Source of the DNA: an uncultured Chthonomonas sp.
GTDB taxonomy: Bacteria; Armatimonadota; Chthonomonadetes; Chthonomonadales; Chthonomonadaceae
Reading direction: 5' to 3'
Length of the DNA stretch: 64,000 nucleotides
Assembly: GCA_903859705.1 (NCBI GenBank)
Contig: CAIONQ010000090.1
Span: 1 to 64,000, forward strand
Under the pieces are notes generated by a model. That model saw only the letters and a list, made by a program, of their open reading frames with translations. It ran no database searches and was not told where the DNA came from. The translations under genes were made by a program, and so were the position numbers. Positions 20,285 to 62,953 of the stretch are shown one piece after another; position 1 is the first letter of the stretch; each line of letters begins with the position of its first letter.

Positions 20285-21040
20285 ATGCATTCATCACAGA
20301 AGATCAAAAACGGGTTCACACTAATCGAGCTGCTTGTAGTTATCGCAATTATAGCAATATTGGCTGCTATCCTTTTCCCGGTGTTCGCTCAGGCCCGTGA
20401 AAAGGCTCGCCAGACCACCTGTACATCCAACGTGAAAGAGCTTGGCATCGCGTGGATGATGTACGTACAGGATTACGACGAAACGTATCCGCCAACAAAC
20501 TCCACGCAGAACCCTGCATCTGGCTGGGTAAACTCTACAACCTACACAACAAAGTACCCTTGCAAGCCCTGCCGGCCGCACCTTGCCTCAGATCAATCCG
20601 TAACGTATGATCCAACCATCTATGCAATTCCATATATTAAGAACTACGATATTTTTAAGTGCCCCAGCGATACTGGCATAGGCACCTTTACCGTAAATGG
20701 CGTAACGTACACCGATCCCAGTGGTGGCCTACCGCTATGGAAAGTAGAGCACACTAGCTACTGCCTGAACACCGTGATGACGCGCGTAGGCAGCCTGGCG
20801 GGAATTATTCTGCCAGCTGAAACCTACATGGGTGCTGAGGTAATGTCCTTCCACATGGGTAAGGGTACTGCACAGCAGGCTTGGGCAACTGCAACACCCG
20901 GGCAGAGCAACATTGGCCCACGGCGTGTAGCATACTTCTGCGATGGCCACGCAAAGATCACCTCAGATGGTTTCATTGCATCACAGTGCAGCCCTCAGCC
21001 ATCATTGCCAACCGATAGCGGATTGATGCCCGTTCAGTAG
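20285..21040 (+). CDS. Type II/IV pseudopilin-like protein (prepilin N-terminus)
   Basis: A 251-residue protein with a class III signal peptide: [24 protein letters not shown], cleaved after Gly by a prepilin peptidase, with Glu at mature position 5. The following [20 protein letters not shown] is very characteristic of the expanded pseudopilin families of Armatimonadota. The globular domain has paired cysteines (CKPC) and ends with [19 protein letters not shown]. The Shine-Dalgarno is AGGAGGG, 10 bases upstream. It is likely a surface or secretion pseudopilin; such paralogues are typically scattered as single genes, as here. Confidence 0.88.
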
Positions 21041-32142: not shown

Positions 32143-32757
32143 ATGTCAGTTAGCGTCTGGAAACTTGCGGAGTCGATTATGGCGCCCGCTCCGGGCGTTG
32201 CGCTGGACCTTGAAGAGCGCAAGCGCGAGCGAGCCATTCTGGACCGATGTGCGGCCGGAGATGAAAAGGCGATTCGTTGGGTACTTGATAAGTATCGCGA
32301 TCGTGTGGTTCGGCTTTCCTCCCACGTGCTCCACAATCCCCGAGAGGCTGAGGATGTGGCACAGGAGGCATTTGTTAAGGCGTTTCGTCAGATTGGTCAG
32401 TTCCGTGGCGAATCTGGCTTTTATGCCTGGCTCTACCGCATTGTAATCAATCTTTGCCTGGACAGAATGCGTCGCAAATCCTCCACTTCGGAAATGCCTC
32501 TGGAAGAGAGCATTGGCTCTTTTGTAGCGGTGAACCCGGATGTAGAGAAGCGGCTTTCTGTAGAGCAGGTTCTGAATTCGCTCACTCCTCCCATGCGTGC
32601 AGCTCTTGTGTTGCGTGAAGTGGAAGGTTTGGAGTATGCCGAGATCGCGGATGTTCTGTCAATTCCGCTGGGTACAGTGCGCTCGCGTCTGAACACAGCG
32701 CGAGAACAGTTCCGAAAGCGCTGGCTTGCCCTGCAGGAGGAGGCGAATCATGTTTGA
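32143..32757 (+). CDS. ECF RNA polymerase sigma factor
   Basis: A 204-residue sigma-70 family protein with region 2 (LSSHVLHNPREAEDVAQEAFVKAF, FYAWLYRIVINLCLDRMRR) and region 4 (ALVLREVEGLEYAEIADVLSIPLGTVRSRLNTAR). It is linked by a short acidic loop. There is no region 3, as expected for an ECF factor. The last codons overlap the anti-sigma gene (ATG 32750), so sigma and anti-sigma are translationally coupled. RpoE-like, probably autoregulated. Confidence 0.92.
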   Translation: MSVSVWKLAESIMAPAPGVALDLEERKRERAILDRCAAGDEKAIRWVLDKYRDRVVRLSSHVLHNPREAEDVAQEAFVKAFRQIGQFRGESGFYAWLYRIVINLCLDRMRRKSSTSEMPLEESIGSFVAVNPDVEKRLSVEQVLNSLTPPMRAALVLREVEGLEYAEIADVLSIPLGTVRSRLNTAREQFRKRWLALQEEANHV

Positions 32758-40565: not shown

Positions 40566-41234
40566 ATGTCGGCTCTGTCCATAAATTCCAATACACAGCA
40601 TGAGTTTGAACAGCTTTTTATGCGTAGCCAGCGCCGGGCCTATAATTTGGCCTATCGGCTTACCGGCAACGCAGCGGATGCAGAAGATGTTGCCCAGGAC
40701 GCATATGTTCGCGCCTGGACTAACTTTGAAACGTATGATTCGTCCAGAAGCTTTGAAGGCTGGCTGTTCCGCATTATCACCAACAGGGTAATTGATATGC
40801 GCCGCCGCCAGAAGCGCGTGCCCATGTACTCACTGGATACGCCGGTACAGGGCGATGAAGATGGGCAGCCGCTTGCTCATGAGTTTGCCGCACCAGATAG
40901 CAACCCGCAGGACATCGTTATCGACCCTGTAATGGATGAGAAACTGCAGAGAGCTCTGGATTCTCTGCCAGCAGATTACCGAACTGCAATTCTGATGTGC
41001 GATGTTGAAGAGAAGAGCTATCAGGAGATAGCACTGCAGATGCGGTGCGCCATTGGCACCGTTCGCAGCCGAATTCACCGTGCAAGAGTAATGCTGCGAA
41101 AGCAGATGGAACCAGGCACGCCGCCTCGAGGTCGCTCACGGCGCAGTGCGGTTCGCACAACAGTAGTAACTGAAGTTGCCACGGTTAAAAGCGCCCCATC
41201 TGCAAGAACACATACTGCACTGGCCGCTGCCTGA
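40566..41234 (+). CDS. ECF RNA polymerase sigma factor
   Basis: A 222-residue ECF factor: region 2 LAYRLTGNAADAEDVAQDAYVRAW and FEGWLFRIITNRVIDMRRR, region 4 LPADYRTAILMCDVEEKSYQEIALQM with the helix-turn-helix CAIGTVRSRIHRARVML. About 45 basic and then Ala/Thr-rich residues extend past region 4. No anti-sigma gene is adjacent, unlike the other two ECF genes of this window. AGGAGG is well placed before ATG 40566. Confidence 0.9.
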   Translation: MSALSINSNTQHEFEQLFMRSQRRAYNLAYRLTGNAADAEDVAQDAYVRAWTNFETYDSSRSFEGWLFRIITNRVIDMRRRQKRVPMYSLDTPVQGDEDGQPLAHEFAAPDSNPQDIVIDPVMDEKLQRALDSLPADYRTAILMCDVEEKSYQEIALQMRCAIGTVRSRIHRARVMLRKQMEPGTPPRGRSRRSAVRTTVVTEVATVKSAPSARTHTALAAA

Positions 41235-58427: not shown

Positions 58428-58727
58428 ATGCGCAAGCCAGACGAGATTGTACGCGAAGTTGTATGTAACGAAACCGGCAAACCGATGGCAAAGATTCCGC
58501 TGTGGATGGCCGACGTTAAGGTTAAGTTCATCAGCGATGAAGCCAGGCAGAAGCACCCTGCTCTGCCAAGCCTTGCAGATATTGAGCCACTTCGCCGCGC
58601 CAGCGCTTCCTCAGAACCAGATGCGCTGAAAGTAATTGAGTCTAAGGGCATCGCAGCAATCGATGATCCGGATGCGGGCTTCGACGACGTAGAGGTTGAG
58701 GAAGCCGAAGACGAAGACGACGACTAA
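58428..58727 (+). CDS. Unknown 99-residue protein with acidic tail
   Basis: Starts at ATG 58428 with GGAG 10 bases upstream. The head, EIVREVVCNETGKPMAKIPLWMADVKVKFISDEARQKHP, looks like a small folded domain. It ends in a run of Asp and Glu (DDVEVEEAEDEDDD). No family recognised. A terminator follows. Confidence 0.6.
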   Translation: MRKPDEIVREVVCNETGKPMAKIPLWMADVKVKFISDEARQKHPALPSLADIEPLRRASASSEPDALKVIESKGIAAIDDPDAGFDDVEVEEAEDEDDD

Positions 58728-58776
58728 TCGGCGTTTAGCATCGAATGCGTATTCGGATGTAGTTTACGAGTCTATA

Positions 58777-58808
58777 GGCACCGGCCAGTTTGGCCGGTGT
58801 CTCTTTTT
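58777..58808 (+). terminator. Intrinsic terminator
   Basis: CACCGGCCA (58779-58787) and TGGCCGGTG (58791-58799) form a perfect 9-bp stem with a 3-base loop, followed by TCTCTTTTTG. Confidence 0.85.
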
Positions 58809-58975
58809 GTGCAATCCGTACTGTGGTGGAATTTTTGTTCTTGCGTTTAGATCCTGCAGCAAATCCGCAATTATCCGTTCGTAAGCAATACCAGCCAATT
58901 ACCAGGTATCTGGAGTAAATAAAATAGTGATTCATCCGGGCCCTTGTCACGTTTTATAATTGGAGGCTCAATCAA

Positions 58976-59518
58976 TTGGATGAAACCGCACTGATACACT
59001 TGGCTGCCCGTGGAGACATGCAGGCGTTTGAGGCAATCGTTCAATCCCATCAGCACCGGGTAGTGAGATATGCAGAGCGCATACTACACGATTCTGGCCT
59101 TGCCGAAGATGTGGCTCAGGAAACGTTCATAAGGCTGTGGCGAACGCTGAAAACATGTACTCCTGACCGAAACCTCACGGCTTACATTCTGAAAACAGCT
59201 CGCAATCTGTGTATGGACGTCCTTCGTGGTTCAAGCCAGCTTCAAACAGCCGCCACAGACCTGGTAGCTTCACCCAACGAGCAGGGACCTCAACAAGTTG
59301 CCGAGCGCTCTGCGCTTCAGCATGCTGTGAAAGCAGCCATTATCGCCCTACCAGAGCCTCAACAATTAGTCTTTGTCTTGAGTCACTACGAGGGCTTATC
59401 TTACCAACAAATTGCTGAGATATTGGGCTGCCCGGTTGGCACCGTTGCATCACGCAAACGCCTTGCCGTGGCAACACTCAGAAGGCGGCTACTGCCATGG
59501 ATTACGGAGACAAAATGA
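58976..59518 (+). CDS. ECF RNA polymerase sigma factor
   Basis: A 180-residue ECF factor: region 2 RILHDSGLAEDVAQETFIRLWRTL and ILKTARNLCMDVLR, region 4 LPEPQQLVFVLSHYEGLSYQQIAEILGCPVGTVASRKRLAVATL. It starts with TTG 58976, GGAGG 9 bases upstream. The stop overlaps the anti-sigma ATG. Third ECF factor in the window. Confidence 0.9.
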   Translation: MDETALIHLAARGDMQAFEAIVQSHQHRVVRYAERILHDSGLAEDVAQETFIRLWRTLKTCTPDRNLTAYILKTARNLCMDVLRGSSQLQTAATDLVASPNEQGPQQVAERSALQHAVKAAIIALPEPQQLVFVLSHYEGLSYQQIAEILGCPVGTVASRKRLAVATLRRRLLPWITETK

Positions 59519-59964
59519 ACTGTCAGTACGTTTGCAACCGCCTTTCGGCGTTTATAGATGGCGAGCTTAGCAGCGAAATCGCGCTACAGATTGATCAACA
59601 CCTGTGTGAATGCACCAGTTGCAGCAACTGGCACTCTGAACTTCTGGAAACGCTTGCGCTAACGAATTCGGGCAATGCAGCGCAAACAGACATATGGTCA
59701 AAAGTGTATTCCGGTATACAAAAAGAACCCGCCTACACAGATACTGGGCTCAAACAGGAGATCCTTGCATTGAGAAAGGACATCGAGCACCTGCGCTCAG
59801 AAATCCGATCACTGCAAGCGCACCTGACCCCAAAAAACCTATCGGCATCACAATCAGACGCGCTGCTCATGTTCCCAAACAGTTCACTGGGGCAAGAAGG
59901 CGGCTCCCAGTCTGCATGCAGCAGTGCAATCGCGGCACCAGAAAGGAATAGACAATGGAACTGA
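59515..59964 (+). CDS. Soluble zinc-finger anti-sigma factor
   Basis: A 149-residue protein with CNRLSAFIDGELSSEIALQIDQHLCECTSC near the N-terminus; HLCECTSC is the HxxxCxxC zinc motif. There is no membrane segment, so this is a cytosolic anti-sigma, unlike the one at 32750. A coiled-coil stretch (LKQEILALRKDIEHLRSEIRSLQAHL) follows. Coupled to the sigma gene by ATGA and to the downstream PilT-like gene by a 10-base overlap. Confidence 0.85.
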   Translation: MNCQYVCNRLSAFIDGELSSEIALQIDQHLCECTSCSNWHSELLETLALTNSGNAAQTDIWSKVYSGIQKEPAYTDTGLKQEILALRKDIEHLRSEIRSLQAHLTPKNLSASQSDALLMFPNSSLGQEGGSQSACSSAIAAPERNRQWN

Positions 59965-61001
59965 CCGACCTGTTAGCTCTGGCAATTGAAGAAGACGCAT
60001 CCGATTTGCACATCATTACCGGGCAGCCCCCTGCTCTGCGCGTTGGTGGCAAACTTACACGTCAGGATAGCCCAGTGCTATCGACGGAGGAGGTTATTGA
60101 GCTGCTGCGGCCACATGTTTCTCAAGATCAACTTGAGATGATTTCTGCACATGCAGGCGATGTGGAGCTGTTTATACGTTGTAATGGTAGGCTGTTTCGG
60201 GGGTGTACTTTCAGGGAGTTTGCAGGGGTGGGCGCAGCGTTCAGGCAGATACCACAACATATTCCAACTCTGAACGAACTGTACGCCACTTCGCCAGAAC
60301 AACAAGTAAAGGACACCCTGCAAGCAATAACACGCATGGATCAAGGGCTCGTGGTTGTAGCAGGGCCTTCTGGCAGTGGCAAGTGCACCACGGCTGCGGG
60401 GCTGGTAGATACGATTAACCGCGAATGCTGTAAACGCATAATGGTAATAGACAACGTGATGGATTATGAGTTTTGCAGCCATAACAGTATCGTAACTCAG
60501 CACATCATTGGCCGAGATGTTGCCTCGTTTAACCAGGCAGCATTTACGGCAATGAACGCAGATGCCAACGTAGTTTATGTAGGTGAGTTACTAAGCATGG
60601 AGATGATGCGCCTGGCTCTGGGCCTGGCAGAAACCGGCCATCTGGTATTTGCAGTATTGAATGCAAACGGCGCTTCCGAGGCAATCGAGCGTATGTCCGA
60701 AGTGTTCCCCGAACCGCGAGATACAATACGGCGCATACTGGCACGGAATTTAGTTGCCGTTCTAAGCCAGAGGCTGCTGAAAAGATCGGACAAACCCGGA
60801 CGTGTGGCTGTGCTTGAAGTCCTTCTGAAGTCTGCGAGAATTCAGCAACAGATTGCCGCAGGTGAGCCAGATTTTACCCCTGCAATTGAAGCGGAGAGCG
60901 GCACAGGCATGCAGAGCATGGAGCAGGCAGTAAATAAACTGGTTGGCGCGGGAATTATCAGCGCAGAAACCGCGGCAGCGGTGTTATCTCACCGAGGTTA
61001 A
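59955..61001 (+). CDS. PilT-like protein with degenerate ATPase motifs
   Basis: A 348-residue protein with the PilT fold over its length: LLALAIEEDASDLHIITGQPPALRVGG, then GLVVVAGPSGSGK and LALGLAETGHLVFAVLNANGASEAIERM. Key sites differ from active PilT. Walker A is GPSGSGKCT (Cys144 for Ser), the Asp box IEDPIEY is IDNVMDYEF (165-173), GEMRDLE is GELLSME (210-216), and the His box GTLHTN is AVLNAN. ATP hydrolysis is therefore doubtful. AAAGGA precedes ATG. Encoded with an ECF sigma/anti-sigma pair, not with pilus genes. Confidence 0.8.
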   Translation: MELTDLLALAIEEDASDLHIITGQPPALRVGGKLTRQDSPVLSTEEVIELLRPHVSQDQLEMISAHAGDVELFIRCNGRLFRGCTFREFAGVGAAFRQIPQHIPTLNELYATSPEQQVKDTLQAITRMDQGLVVVAGPSGSGKCTTAAGLVDTINRECCKRIMVIDNVMDYEFCSHNSIVTQHIIGRDVASFNQAAFTAMNADANVVYVGELLSMEMMRLALGLAETGHLVFAVLNANGASEAIERMSEVFPEPRDTIRRILARNLVAVLSQRLLKRSDKPGRVAVLEVLLKSARIQQQIAAGEPDFTPAIEAESGTGMQSMEQAVNKLVGAGIISAETAAAVLSHRG

Positions 61002-61087: not shown

Positions 61088-62953
61088 CTAAAAGCTGCAA
61101 TGACCAATCGTTATAAGTGCCTCGGCAACCTCACCAAACGGGCGTCCATTGGCGGTGAGCGATGCGGCTATAGGCTGCCGTTTGCAGGCTGTAGCGGCAG
61201 GAACCACCTGTAAGCTAATTTCAACCTCTTCTCTGGCCCCGGCTACAACATCGGCTTCCGGGGCCAACCACCCTTCTGGCAAGGTAAGCGCTACCGAAAG
61301 CGTCGCCACGGTTGGGTACGGGTTGCGAAGATGAACCGTGATCTCAAAGGGCTGCGCTGCCTGTAAACGAGTGCGGTAGGGCCAGATCCACCCACCCCAG
61401 CTATCCATATTGAAATGCACATCCGTGTCTGCAAGCGGCATAGATCGTTTTGCAGTTTCTGCATAGTCGTTGGTCCACCGCTCTATATGCCGGAAGAATG
61501 CATCATCCGTAAAAAAGGCGGGCTGGTGGCCCTGGATAACGATGTCTGGCCGATACTCCAACATCCACTTTCCGCTCTCAACATACCCGTCCAGCAAGGC
61601 ACCATTGCGGAACACATGATTCTGTGCTCGGCGGTTATGCTCAAAATCCTCGGCACCCTTGTAAAAGAAGTACTGATCCCCTGTATGGGCAATGCGCTTG
61701 CCATCGGCTTCAAAACCAATCAGAGATGCGTACCGTGTATGCCCGTTCATGGGATGCAACTTGAACGTGTACTCCTCCCAGGTGAATGGCTGCTCCAGTG
61801 AGAGCTTGCGATCTATGCGGCTGGCAACGGGCCAACAGCATGGGAAGCAATGCGCTTCTGGATATTCCAATAGATCTGAGAAGTTCTCAGCAGCCCAGCA
61901 CTCGGTTCCATATATACGTTGAAGCACAGGGATGCCGCAAACATGGTCGTCGTGGAAGTGGCTCACCAGTACGGCCTCAATCCGGTCAATGCCAAGCTGT
62001 CGCTTTAGGCCATCCATTCCGTGGAGCAATGCCCTGCGTCGAGCCGGGCGAGGATACGATTGCCAATTTGCCGACGTGAAGGAATGGTATCCATAATCGA
62101 TGGCTATTGCTTTGCCGGATTCACTTATTACATACCAGGTGTTGGCTACCGATTGCGTATCTCGCCAGAGATGATCGGTAACGCGCTCGAGTGCCGGGGC
62201 ATGCAGGCTCTCCAGTGAGGCTGTTTTTCCATCGCGCACTTCCAGCAGGGAGCGCATAGAGTGTCGAAGCTCGGTAAGTGCCTCTTCAATCTCTGAAGAT
62301 ATCGGTGCCCCAAGGCTGGGCAGAAGCAAATCTGGCGAATATGCGGTTAGCTCCAGAGCAGACCAGTATACCTGGGCCGCACCTGGCATATCGTTGTAGT
62401 TGTACTGCAGAGGTGCGATACGTGGTACACGCCCGGGGCTGTGAATGGTTTCGCCACAGAATACGCCTCGACTTCCATCGGCAAGCTGCACGCCGAGCCC
62501 AATCTGGCTAACAGTAGCGCCAGGAAGTGGCAGCACATCAACCTTCAGCCCGCAAGCGGGTACGTCAAAGCTATCATAATCCCTCAACACACCGGCCACT
62601 GGGATGGGCCAAACTGGTGCAAACAGATCCCATAGATTGTCATAAATGATATAGGTTTCACGTTCGCGAAAGTGCTGAGATGGGTCTTCAAATATGGCCA
62701 GCTCGTACTCTGGAACGTATATAGGAATACCCGCAGCGGCAGCATCTGCCGCCCCGGCTGAGTGATCTCGGAAATAGTGTGTGCACAGCAGGGCCGTAAC
62801 GGGTTCTGGCAACTCGGAGCGATGCTGAAGCCAGCGGCCAGTACCGGCGTTTATAACAGCAACGCCCTGCGGGCCAGCTACCGCGTATACATTGCAGCTT
62901 TCGCCCCCGGCATAAAGCCACAGGCCAACTGCTATCTCATTCCAGAACTTCAT
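61088..62953 (-). CDS. Tandem metallo-beta-lactamase-fold protein with NEW3-like tail
   Basis: A 621-residue protein with two MBL folds. The first (to about residue 235) has THYFRDHSAGAA near 60, an altered HxHxDH. The second (about 270-520) has the intact SHFHDDHVCGIP near 340 and later HTGDQYFF. The C-terminal 100 residues (ITVHLRNPYPTVATLSVALTLPEGWLAP) look like an NPCBM-associated NEW3 beta domain. It is 9 bases from the sugar ABC permease genes upstream, suggesting a hydrolase for imported carbohydrate derivative. Confidence 0.75.
   Translation of the reverse strand: MKFWNEIAVGLWLYAGGESCNVYAVAGPQGVAVINAGTGRWLQHRSELPEPVTALLCTHYFRDHSAGAADAAAAGIPIYVPEYELAIFEDPSQHFRERETYIIYDNLWDLFAPVWPIPVAGVLRDYDSFDVPACGLKVDVLPLPGATVSQIGLGVQLADGSRGVFCGETIHSPGRVPRIAPLQYNYNDMPGAAQVYWSALELTAYSPDLLLPSLGAPISSEIEEALTELRHSMRSLLEVRDGKTASLESLHAPALERVTDHLWRDTQSVANTWYVISESGKAIAIDYGYHSFTSANWQSYPRPARRRALLHGMDGLKRQLGIDRIEAVLVSHFHDDHVCGIPVLQRIYGTECWAAENFSDLLEYPEAHCFPCCWPVASRIDRKLSLEQPFTWEEYTFKLHPMNGHTRYASLIGFEADGKRIAHTGDQYFFYKGAEDFEHNRRAQNHVFRNGALLDGYVESGKWMLEYRPDIVIQGHQPAFFTDDAFFRHIERWTNDYAETAKRSMPLADTDVHFNMDSWGGWIWPYRTRLQAAQPFEITVHLRNPYPTVATLSVALTLPEGWLAPEADVVAGAREEVEISLQVVPAATACKRQPIAASLTANGRPFGEVAEALITIGHCSF

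Follow-up and report, generated by a model that had tools for sequence, protein, structure and literature searches.

We have analysed an operon within a 64,000-nucleotide stretch of DNA from an uncultured Chthonomonas sp. (assembly GCA_903859705.1, contig CAIONQ010000090.1, positions 1 to 64,000; hereafter the window), in which overlapping genes for an extracytoplasmic function (ECF) sigma factor, an anti-sigma factor and a protein resembling the pilus retraction ATPase PilT follow one another at 58976-61001. The same gene order recurs in ten species of the phylum, in all of which the PilT-like protein is catalytically degenerate, and the genes behave as a co-inherited unit with a shared promoter element. 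We propose, with a probability of roughly 0.5, that the three genes encode an autoregulated module for ECF signalling, in which the third protein is a pseudo-ATPase derived from the PilT retraction motor and senses the state of the pilus motor. The three open reading frames are present as the first-pass annotation, made from the sequence alone, had described them, and the operon is arranged as follows.

58927-58957, + strand: predicted ECF-type promoter, GATT-N17-CGTT, a variant of GAAG-N17-[CT]GTT (12.0 bits with the promoter matrix)
58976-59518, + strand: ECF sigma factor gene, TTG start after GGAGG
59515-59964, + strand: gene for a soluble zinc-containing anti-sigma (ZAS; zf-HC2) factor, its ATGA forming a 4-nt overlap with the sigma stop
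59955-61001, + strand: gene for a PilT-fold, catalytically degenerate pseudo-ATPase (the PilT-like protein), overlapping the anti-sigma gene by 10 nt

The sigma factor, of about 180 residues, consists of regions 2 and 4 only, both Pfam matches lying above cut-off (Sigma70_r2, 63.6 bits; Sigma70_r4_2, 56.7 bits), and scores 112.7 bits against the sigma70-ECF family TIGR02937 (cut-off 42.9). Two more ECF sigma genes are found in the window (32227-32727 and 40599-41111, + strand), neither of them close kin of the operon sigma. The anti-sigma factor matches zf-HC2 at 30.2 bits (Pfam cut-off 22.2) and contains the HxxxCxxC zinc motif, a helix-4-like DIWSKVYSGI stretch, a coiled coil and the tail LLMFPNSS; no membrane segment was seen in it. 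By analogy with its family, it would bind and inhibit its own sigma factor.

Occurrence and co-inheritance of the operon

In 291 genomes of the phylum searched with profiles, the order sigma factor, middle protein, PilT-like protein came up in ten, each a different species (the window genome, G042, G073, G074, G076, G078, G080, G100, G111 and G115), spread over four families (codes f1, f14, f15 and f24). Absence of the triplet outside this genome, which the first-pass annotation had named as an outcome that would speak against it, did not occur. The idea that the operon is unique to the window genome was rejected by phylum-wide anti-sigma and PilT matches and then by the sigma profile: in G078, G080 and G076 an anti-sigma match lies shortly ahead of the best non-canonical PilT match, and these loci, when read, have the same gene order. 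Combined into one profile, the four sigmas led to G115, G111, G100, G073 and G074, with the PilT-like gene two genes downstream, together with G042. With a ten-sigma profile exactly these ten are recovered at 215-272 bits, the next match scoring 163, and when the first four members were left out in turn the held-out sigmas scored 179-230 bits against a background of at most 135. The sigma profile is a reliable census marker, with G042 weak (129 bits when held out) and found by position. Profiles of the PilT-like protein or of the anti-sigma factor alone were rejected for this purpose, as canonical PilTs or other zinc-finger proteins outscore certain true members when these are left out. A search with the single PilT-like protein among 60 relatives returned canonical PilTs only, with no orthologue among close relatives, and an exact 8-mer scan of contigs with the window protein, which likewise returned canonical PilTs only, also missed the other nine operons and says little on other phyla. 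Plasmid-borne relatives of the sigma factor were distant ECFs only, at less than 60% identity.

The ten PilT-like proteins form one clade (support 100/99, and 99 with other paralogues included), as do the ten operon sigmas (98/85). The two trees agree in part, as expected of a co-inherited unit, with G073 joining G074, G100 grouping with G111 and G115, and G042 outermost in each; G076 and G078 are placed differently in the two. The nine other PilT-like proteins are 31-42% identical to the window protein and contain no internal stops, and nine of the ten are full-length, the G073 operon being cut by a contig end. In G080 a TnpB/Cas12f-like gene (L126:2004-3167, - strand), with a PF07282 match and a PF01385 match just below cut-off, sits between the anti-sigma and PilT-like genes.

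Retained fold and altered catalytic residues

The window PilT-like protein has a T2SSE match in Pfam, scores 258.7 bits against the PilT family model TIGR01420 (pilT_fam), under the family cut-off of 319.1, and matches Pseudomonas aeruginosa PilT at E=5e-51. Its AlphaFold2 model, built from an alignment of distant PilTs, has a predicted local distance difference test (pLDDT) score of 90.3 and a predicted template modelling (pTM) score of 0.87, and the top Foldseek matches in the PDB are PilT4, PilU and PilT, with template modelling (TM) scores of 0.81-0.89 over about 343 columns. The N-terminal and RecA-like ATPase domains of PilT are thus predicted to be retained over the full length of the protein, and the earlier statement that the fold is kept holds, PilT and PilU being the nearest solved structures.

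Catalytic motifs are altered throughout this fold. Walker A reads GPSGSGKCTT, the Asp box IDNVMDY (canonical IEDPIEY), the Walker B region NADANVVYVGELLSME (canonical REDPDVILVGEMRDLE) and the His box HLVFAVLNAN (canonical HLVFATLHTN), and AIRNLIRE is absent, RIQQQIAA standing in its place. Of nine core positions, defined as invariant in 48 canonical PilTs of the same phylum, five are changed: Ser to Cys144 in the P-loop, Glu to Asp166 in the Asp box, Asp to Asn205 in Walker B, Arg to Leu213 behind Walker B and His to Asn236 at the second His of the His box. The sites in this ATPase family comprise the catalytic Glu, the Mg-binding Glu of the Asp box, the arginine fingers and a second His placed on the gamma-phosphate (PMC5424180; PMC6762196), the last corresponding in PilB to His2 (H420), which touches the gamma-phosphate (PMC5424180). 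The first-pass annotation had described all four diagnostic ATPase sites as altered. Each of the four does carry changes, but the loss is incomplete, as the P-loop Lys143, the catalytic Glu211 (of GE), the first His (H229), Arg97 and both putative arginine fingers are kept.

Degeneracy extends to the entire family. Each of the ten operon PilT-like proteins is changed at one to five of the nine core positions, in contrast to the 48 canonical PilTs and 40 further, more distant paralogues of the phylum, all 88 of which are intact at the core catalytic sites, indicating degeneracy beyond chance. An orthologue with the full motif set intact, which had been named as evidence against the annotation, is not found among the ten operon members. 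The residues lost differ from member to member. The P-loop Ser/Thr is replaced in five (Cys in the window; Trp in G115, G111 and G100; Gly in G073) and intact in the others; the catalytic Glu is replaced in seven, by Asp (G115, G111, G100, G073 and G074) or Ala (G076 and G042); five of nine have Asn, Phe, Ser, Ala or Gly at the second His; eight of ten are without the Arg that follows Walker B, and all nine full-length members without the AIRNLIRE Asn. In G078 and G080 just one of the nine is missing. No member has lost the P-loop Lys or the second arginine finger. Conservation of the altered residues, which the earlier annotation had put forward as a check, is therefore seen at the level of the family, every member being degenerate, but not of the individual change, Walker A Ser to Cys being private to the window genome.

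The pattern could be read as decay, a duplicated pilT having been captured behind an ECF pair and left to drift without function. Sporadic presence, the member-specific nature of the catalytic changes and the lack of the unit at this site in G001, a genome of the same genus, are compatible with such a passenger, but ten reading frames free of internal stops, from four families and in the same order with the same overlaps, are not what drift would leave, nor are co-clading sigmas, a retained fold core and a shared promoter. We regard decay as largely refuted and very improbable. Instead, repeated loss or weakening of hydrolysis is probable in a protein that was itself maintained, which is typical of proteins no longer used for catalysis. 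The regulatory or sensing role suggested by the first-pass annotation would fit well.

Shared promoter element and variable middle proteins

In seven of the ten operons, GAAG-N17-[CT]GTT occurs in the 120 nt ahead of the sigma gene with a spacing of exactly 17 nt, while at any other spacing tested the same element occurs at most once. The chance of finding it is 0.0042 per 120-nt region, with other loci as background, for a motif picked after inspection of the regions. A matrix built from seven other operons, with the window and G078 left out, has its best site at the corresponding place in both of these (12.0 and 18.6 bits, respectively), where a weaker form of the element is present; 7 of 127,940 window positions score at least 12.0 bits. 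Because the spacing is sharp and the two matrix matches are independent, sigma-dependent autoregulation of the operon appears likely. G078 has a second strong match (20.3 bits; L125:8497, + strand) just downstream of its PilT-like gene and facing an oppositely oriented gene, which may reflect a small RNA or chance.

The middle protein is the most variable in its domains. The description of a soluble zinc-finger anti-sigma factor applies to the window, where zf-HC2 is present, but not to the family at large, as the HxxxCxxC zinc finger occurs in four of ten middle proteins (window, G078, G080 and G076) and is missing in six. Those of G115, G111 and G100 are 94-98 residues long and consist of a coiled coil without an added domain. 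Two middle proteins encoded on the - strand bear MshEN, that of G074 (L246:1552-2640) twice and that of G073 (L244:663-1772) together with sigma-70 region 1.2/2. In G042 the middle protein (L250:5351-7414, + strand; 687 residues) contains two sigma-70-like segments (region 2 twice, region 4 twice) between its helix-4-like start and coiled-coil tail, an apparent fusion of an anti-sigma factor with pieces of a sigma factor. Sensing of cyclic di-GMP (c-di-GMP) by the MshEN-bearing proteins was considered and rejected, the 24-residue RLGxx motif being absent; none of the ten middle proteins contains RLG, including the two matched by PF05157.

Common to all ten is a D[LIV][WTSR]xx[VI]xxx[IL] stretch, with small variations and mostly after a Trp, followed by a C-terminal coiled coil and a tail with a conserved Pro (FPNS, FPFAP, TPFAP and similar). 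Class I anti-sigma factors use helix 4 to bind sigma2 and to block core polymerase (PMC7406223); the shared stretch is a candidate for this helix, and the coiled coil and tail may form the interface to the PilT-like protein.

These observations bear on the main rival explanation, in which the PilT-like protein is an output. The sigma/anti-sigma pair would answer some other signal, for instance redox through the zinc finger, and would induce an altered motor subunit which, like PilU with PilT, adjusts the pili by forming mixed or stacked hexamers. The shared promoter does put the PilT-like protein in the sigma regulon, soluble zinc-finger anti-sigma factors are often redox sensors (PMC7406223), and PilU, a second retraction ATPase, depends on PilT and has no AIRNLIRE (PMC6762196), a motif altered here also. 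We nevertheless consider this explanation rather unlikely: the coiled coil and tail persist in the six middle proteins that have no zinc finger, and in all ten genomes the PilT-like gene stays in the sigma operon and has not moved to pilus loci, which favours a signalling partner.

The surroundings of the window operon contain the following features.

58428-58727, + strand: small acidic protein, the left flank, outside the unit and conserved in relatives
58776-58802, + strand: intrinsic terminator-like stem-loop closing the upstream gene, a 12-bp stem then CTTTTT (consensus match only)
61088-62953, - strand: double metallo-beta-lactamase-fold protein, the right flank, convergent and outside the unit

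The terminator-like hairpin sets the upstream gene apart from the operon. The small acidic protein is present in 30 of 31 genomes searched, its own included, has no Pfam match and belongs to no assigned family. In G001, the nearest genome, both flanking genes lie about 50 bp apart with nothing between, and thus the operon is absent at this site, representing either a lineage-specific insertion or a loss.

Proposed coupling of the pilus motor to sigma release

Three observations connect the operon family with pili. One is the descent of the third protein from PilT. In G111, genes for a PilB-like ATPase and a PilC-like platform protein follow the PilT-like gene on the same strand, a canonical PilT lying with pilus genes on another contig, and the MshEN domains of two middle proteins are otherwise found in PilB/MshE-type motors. 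Separately, the N-terminus of the G111 PilB-like protein (L243:2500-4209, - strand), RLGERLIRDGLLAEEQLRQALERQ, fits the MshEN_N c-di-GMP motif by eye, and a prepilin-like start at window position 20312 (+ strand) is a candidate for a pilus-linked regulon; Fimbriimonas ginsengisoli has many prepilin-like genes (PMC4072686).

Some of the same data would also be explained by a sensor of nucleotide occupancy with no connection to pili. A domesticated RecA-like ring would bind ATP/ADP or another nucleotide and pass energy status to the anti-sigma factor, consistent with universal retention of the P-loop Lys and the second arginine finger while hydrolytic residues were lost. We consider this improbable, as the MshEN domains and the pilB-pilC genes behind one operon point to the pilus machinery, and in three members a Trp stands in for the P-loop Ser/Thr, a change expected to interfere with the binding of Mg-nucleotide.

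In the pilus-sensing module that we favour, the middle protein would hold the sigma factor through its helix-4 segment, and through the zinc-finger domain where present, with its coiled coil and Pro-containing tail docking on the PilT-like protein. The latter still has the PilT fold and the P-loop lysine, but its catalytic set is incomplete; it would power no retraction and would sense either conformation or nucleotide occupancy, probably as a member of the pilus motor or platform or through contact with it. By setting the grip of the adaptor on the sigma factor, it would make sigma release dependent on pilus-motor state, and the freed sigma would act at the GAAG-N17-CGTT promoter to transcribe the operon itself, and presumably a regulon as well. 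The operon, its conservation and co-inheritance, the degeneracy, the fold and the shared promoter element come directly from the computational analysis; formation of this complex, the direction of control, the pilus as the signal and the existence of a regulon are those parts of the proposal that we infer.

Several points weigh against this proposal. Distribution is sporadic, at ten of 291 genomes, with the unit lacking at the window site even in same-genus G001. The least degenerate members, G078 and G080, may still hydrolyse ATP. Core pilus genes adjoin one operon in ten, none being found next to the other nine in the stretches read, and the MshEN segments, devoid of the c-di-GMP motif, imply no ligand. 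In addition, the PilT-like branches are long, such that clade support could be partly inflated and exact relationships need caution.

A known case in which an anti-sigma factor ties gene expression to the condition of a surface-appendage machine is FlgM/sigma-28 of flagella, although FlgM is exported, has no ATPase partner and is unrelated in its proteins. The operon resembles ECF pairs with soluble ZAS class I anti-sigma factors (SigR/RsrA and RpoE/ChrR) in having sigma regions 2 and 4, an overlapping zinc-finger anti-sigma gene and predicted autoregulation, but differs in the added pseudo-ATPase gene, in an anti-sigma factor ending in a coiled coil and tail and in the six members without a zinc finger, three of which have MshEN or sigma-70 domains. 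PilT and PilU (TIGR01420) share with the operon proteins the full-length fold, the P-loop lysine, the first His of the His box and the second arginine finger; in contrast, the operon proteins are encoded with a sigma factor, have an incomplete catalytic set in all ten cases and an altered AIRNLIRE, and the window protein falls below the family cut-off. A pilus motor ATPase carrying a signal independently of hydrolysis has a precedent in Myxococcus xanthus, where ATPase-deficient PilB still signals (PMC5544727), but PilB drives extension as an active motor, and its signal goes to Dif proteins and not to a sigma/anti-sigma pair. Similarly, SpoIIIAA, an ATPase of the type II/type IV secretion system (T2SS/T4SS) family, is needed for sigma-G activity in Bacillus sporulation (PMC2703783), but requires all four ATPase motifs, is thought to power a channel between two cells and shares no operon with an anti-sigma factor.

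No published description of a sigma and PilT operon was found in the open-access literature. We tentatively raise the possibility, to which we give less weight than to the module itself, that this is a new kind of ECF signalling in which a hydrolysis-dead pilus motor ring, and not a membrane protease or ligand-binding anti-sigma factor, gates sigma release through a coiled-coil/tail adaptor. The state of the type IV pilus motor would in this way be read out directly in transcription, by way of an adaptor whose input domain (zinc finger, MshEN or sigma-70 pieces) has been exchanged repeatedly.

Catalytic loss has gone to different lengths within the operon family, which makes it a natural series of PilT pseudo-ATPases, and the family indicates that the zinc-finger domain of an anti-sigma factor can be dropped or exchanged while helix 4, the coiled coil and the tail stay. 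How pilus contact or retraction is conveyed to gene expression is a long-standing question, for which the known routes are chemosensory or two-component systems. A degenerate retraction-motor homologue encoded directly behind an anti-sigma factor would be a short, testable path from pilus to gene expression, and the recurring three-gene unit suggests a previously undescribed wiring of a pilus-motor protein to gene expression.
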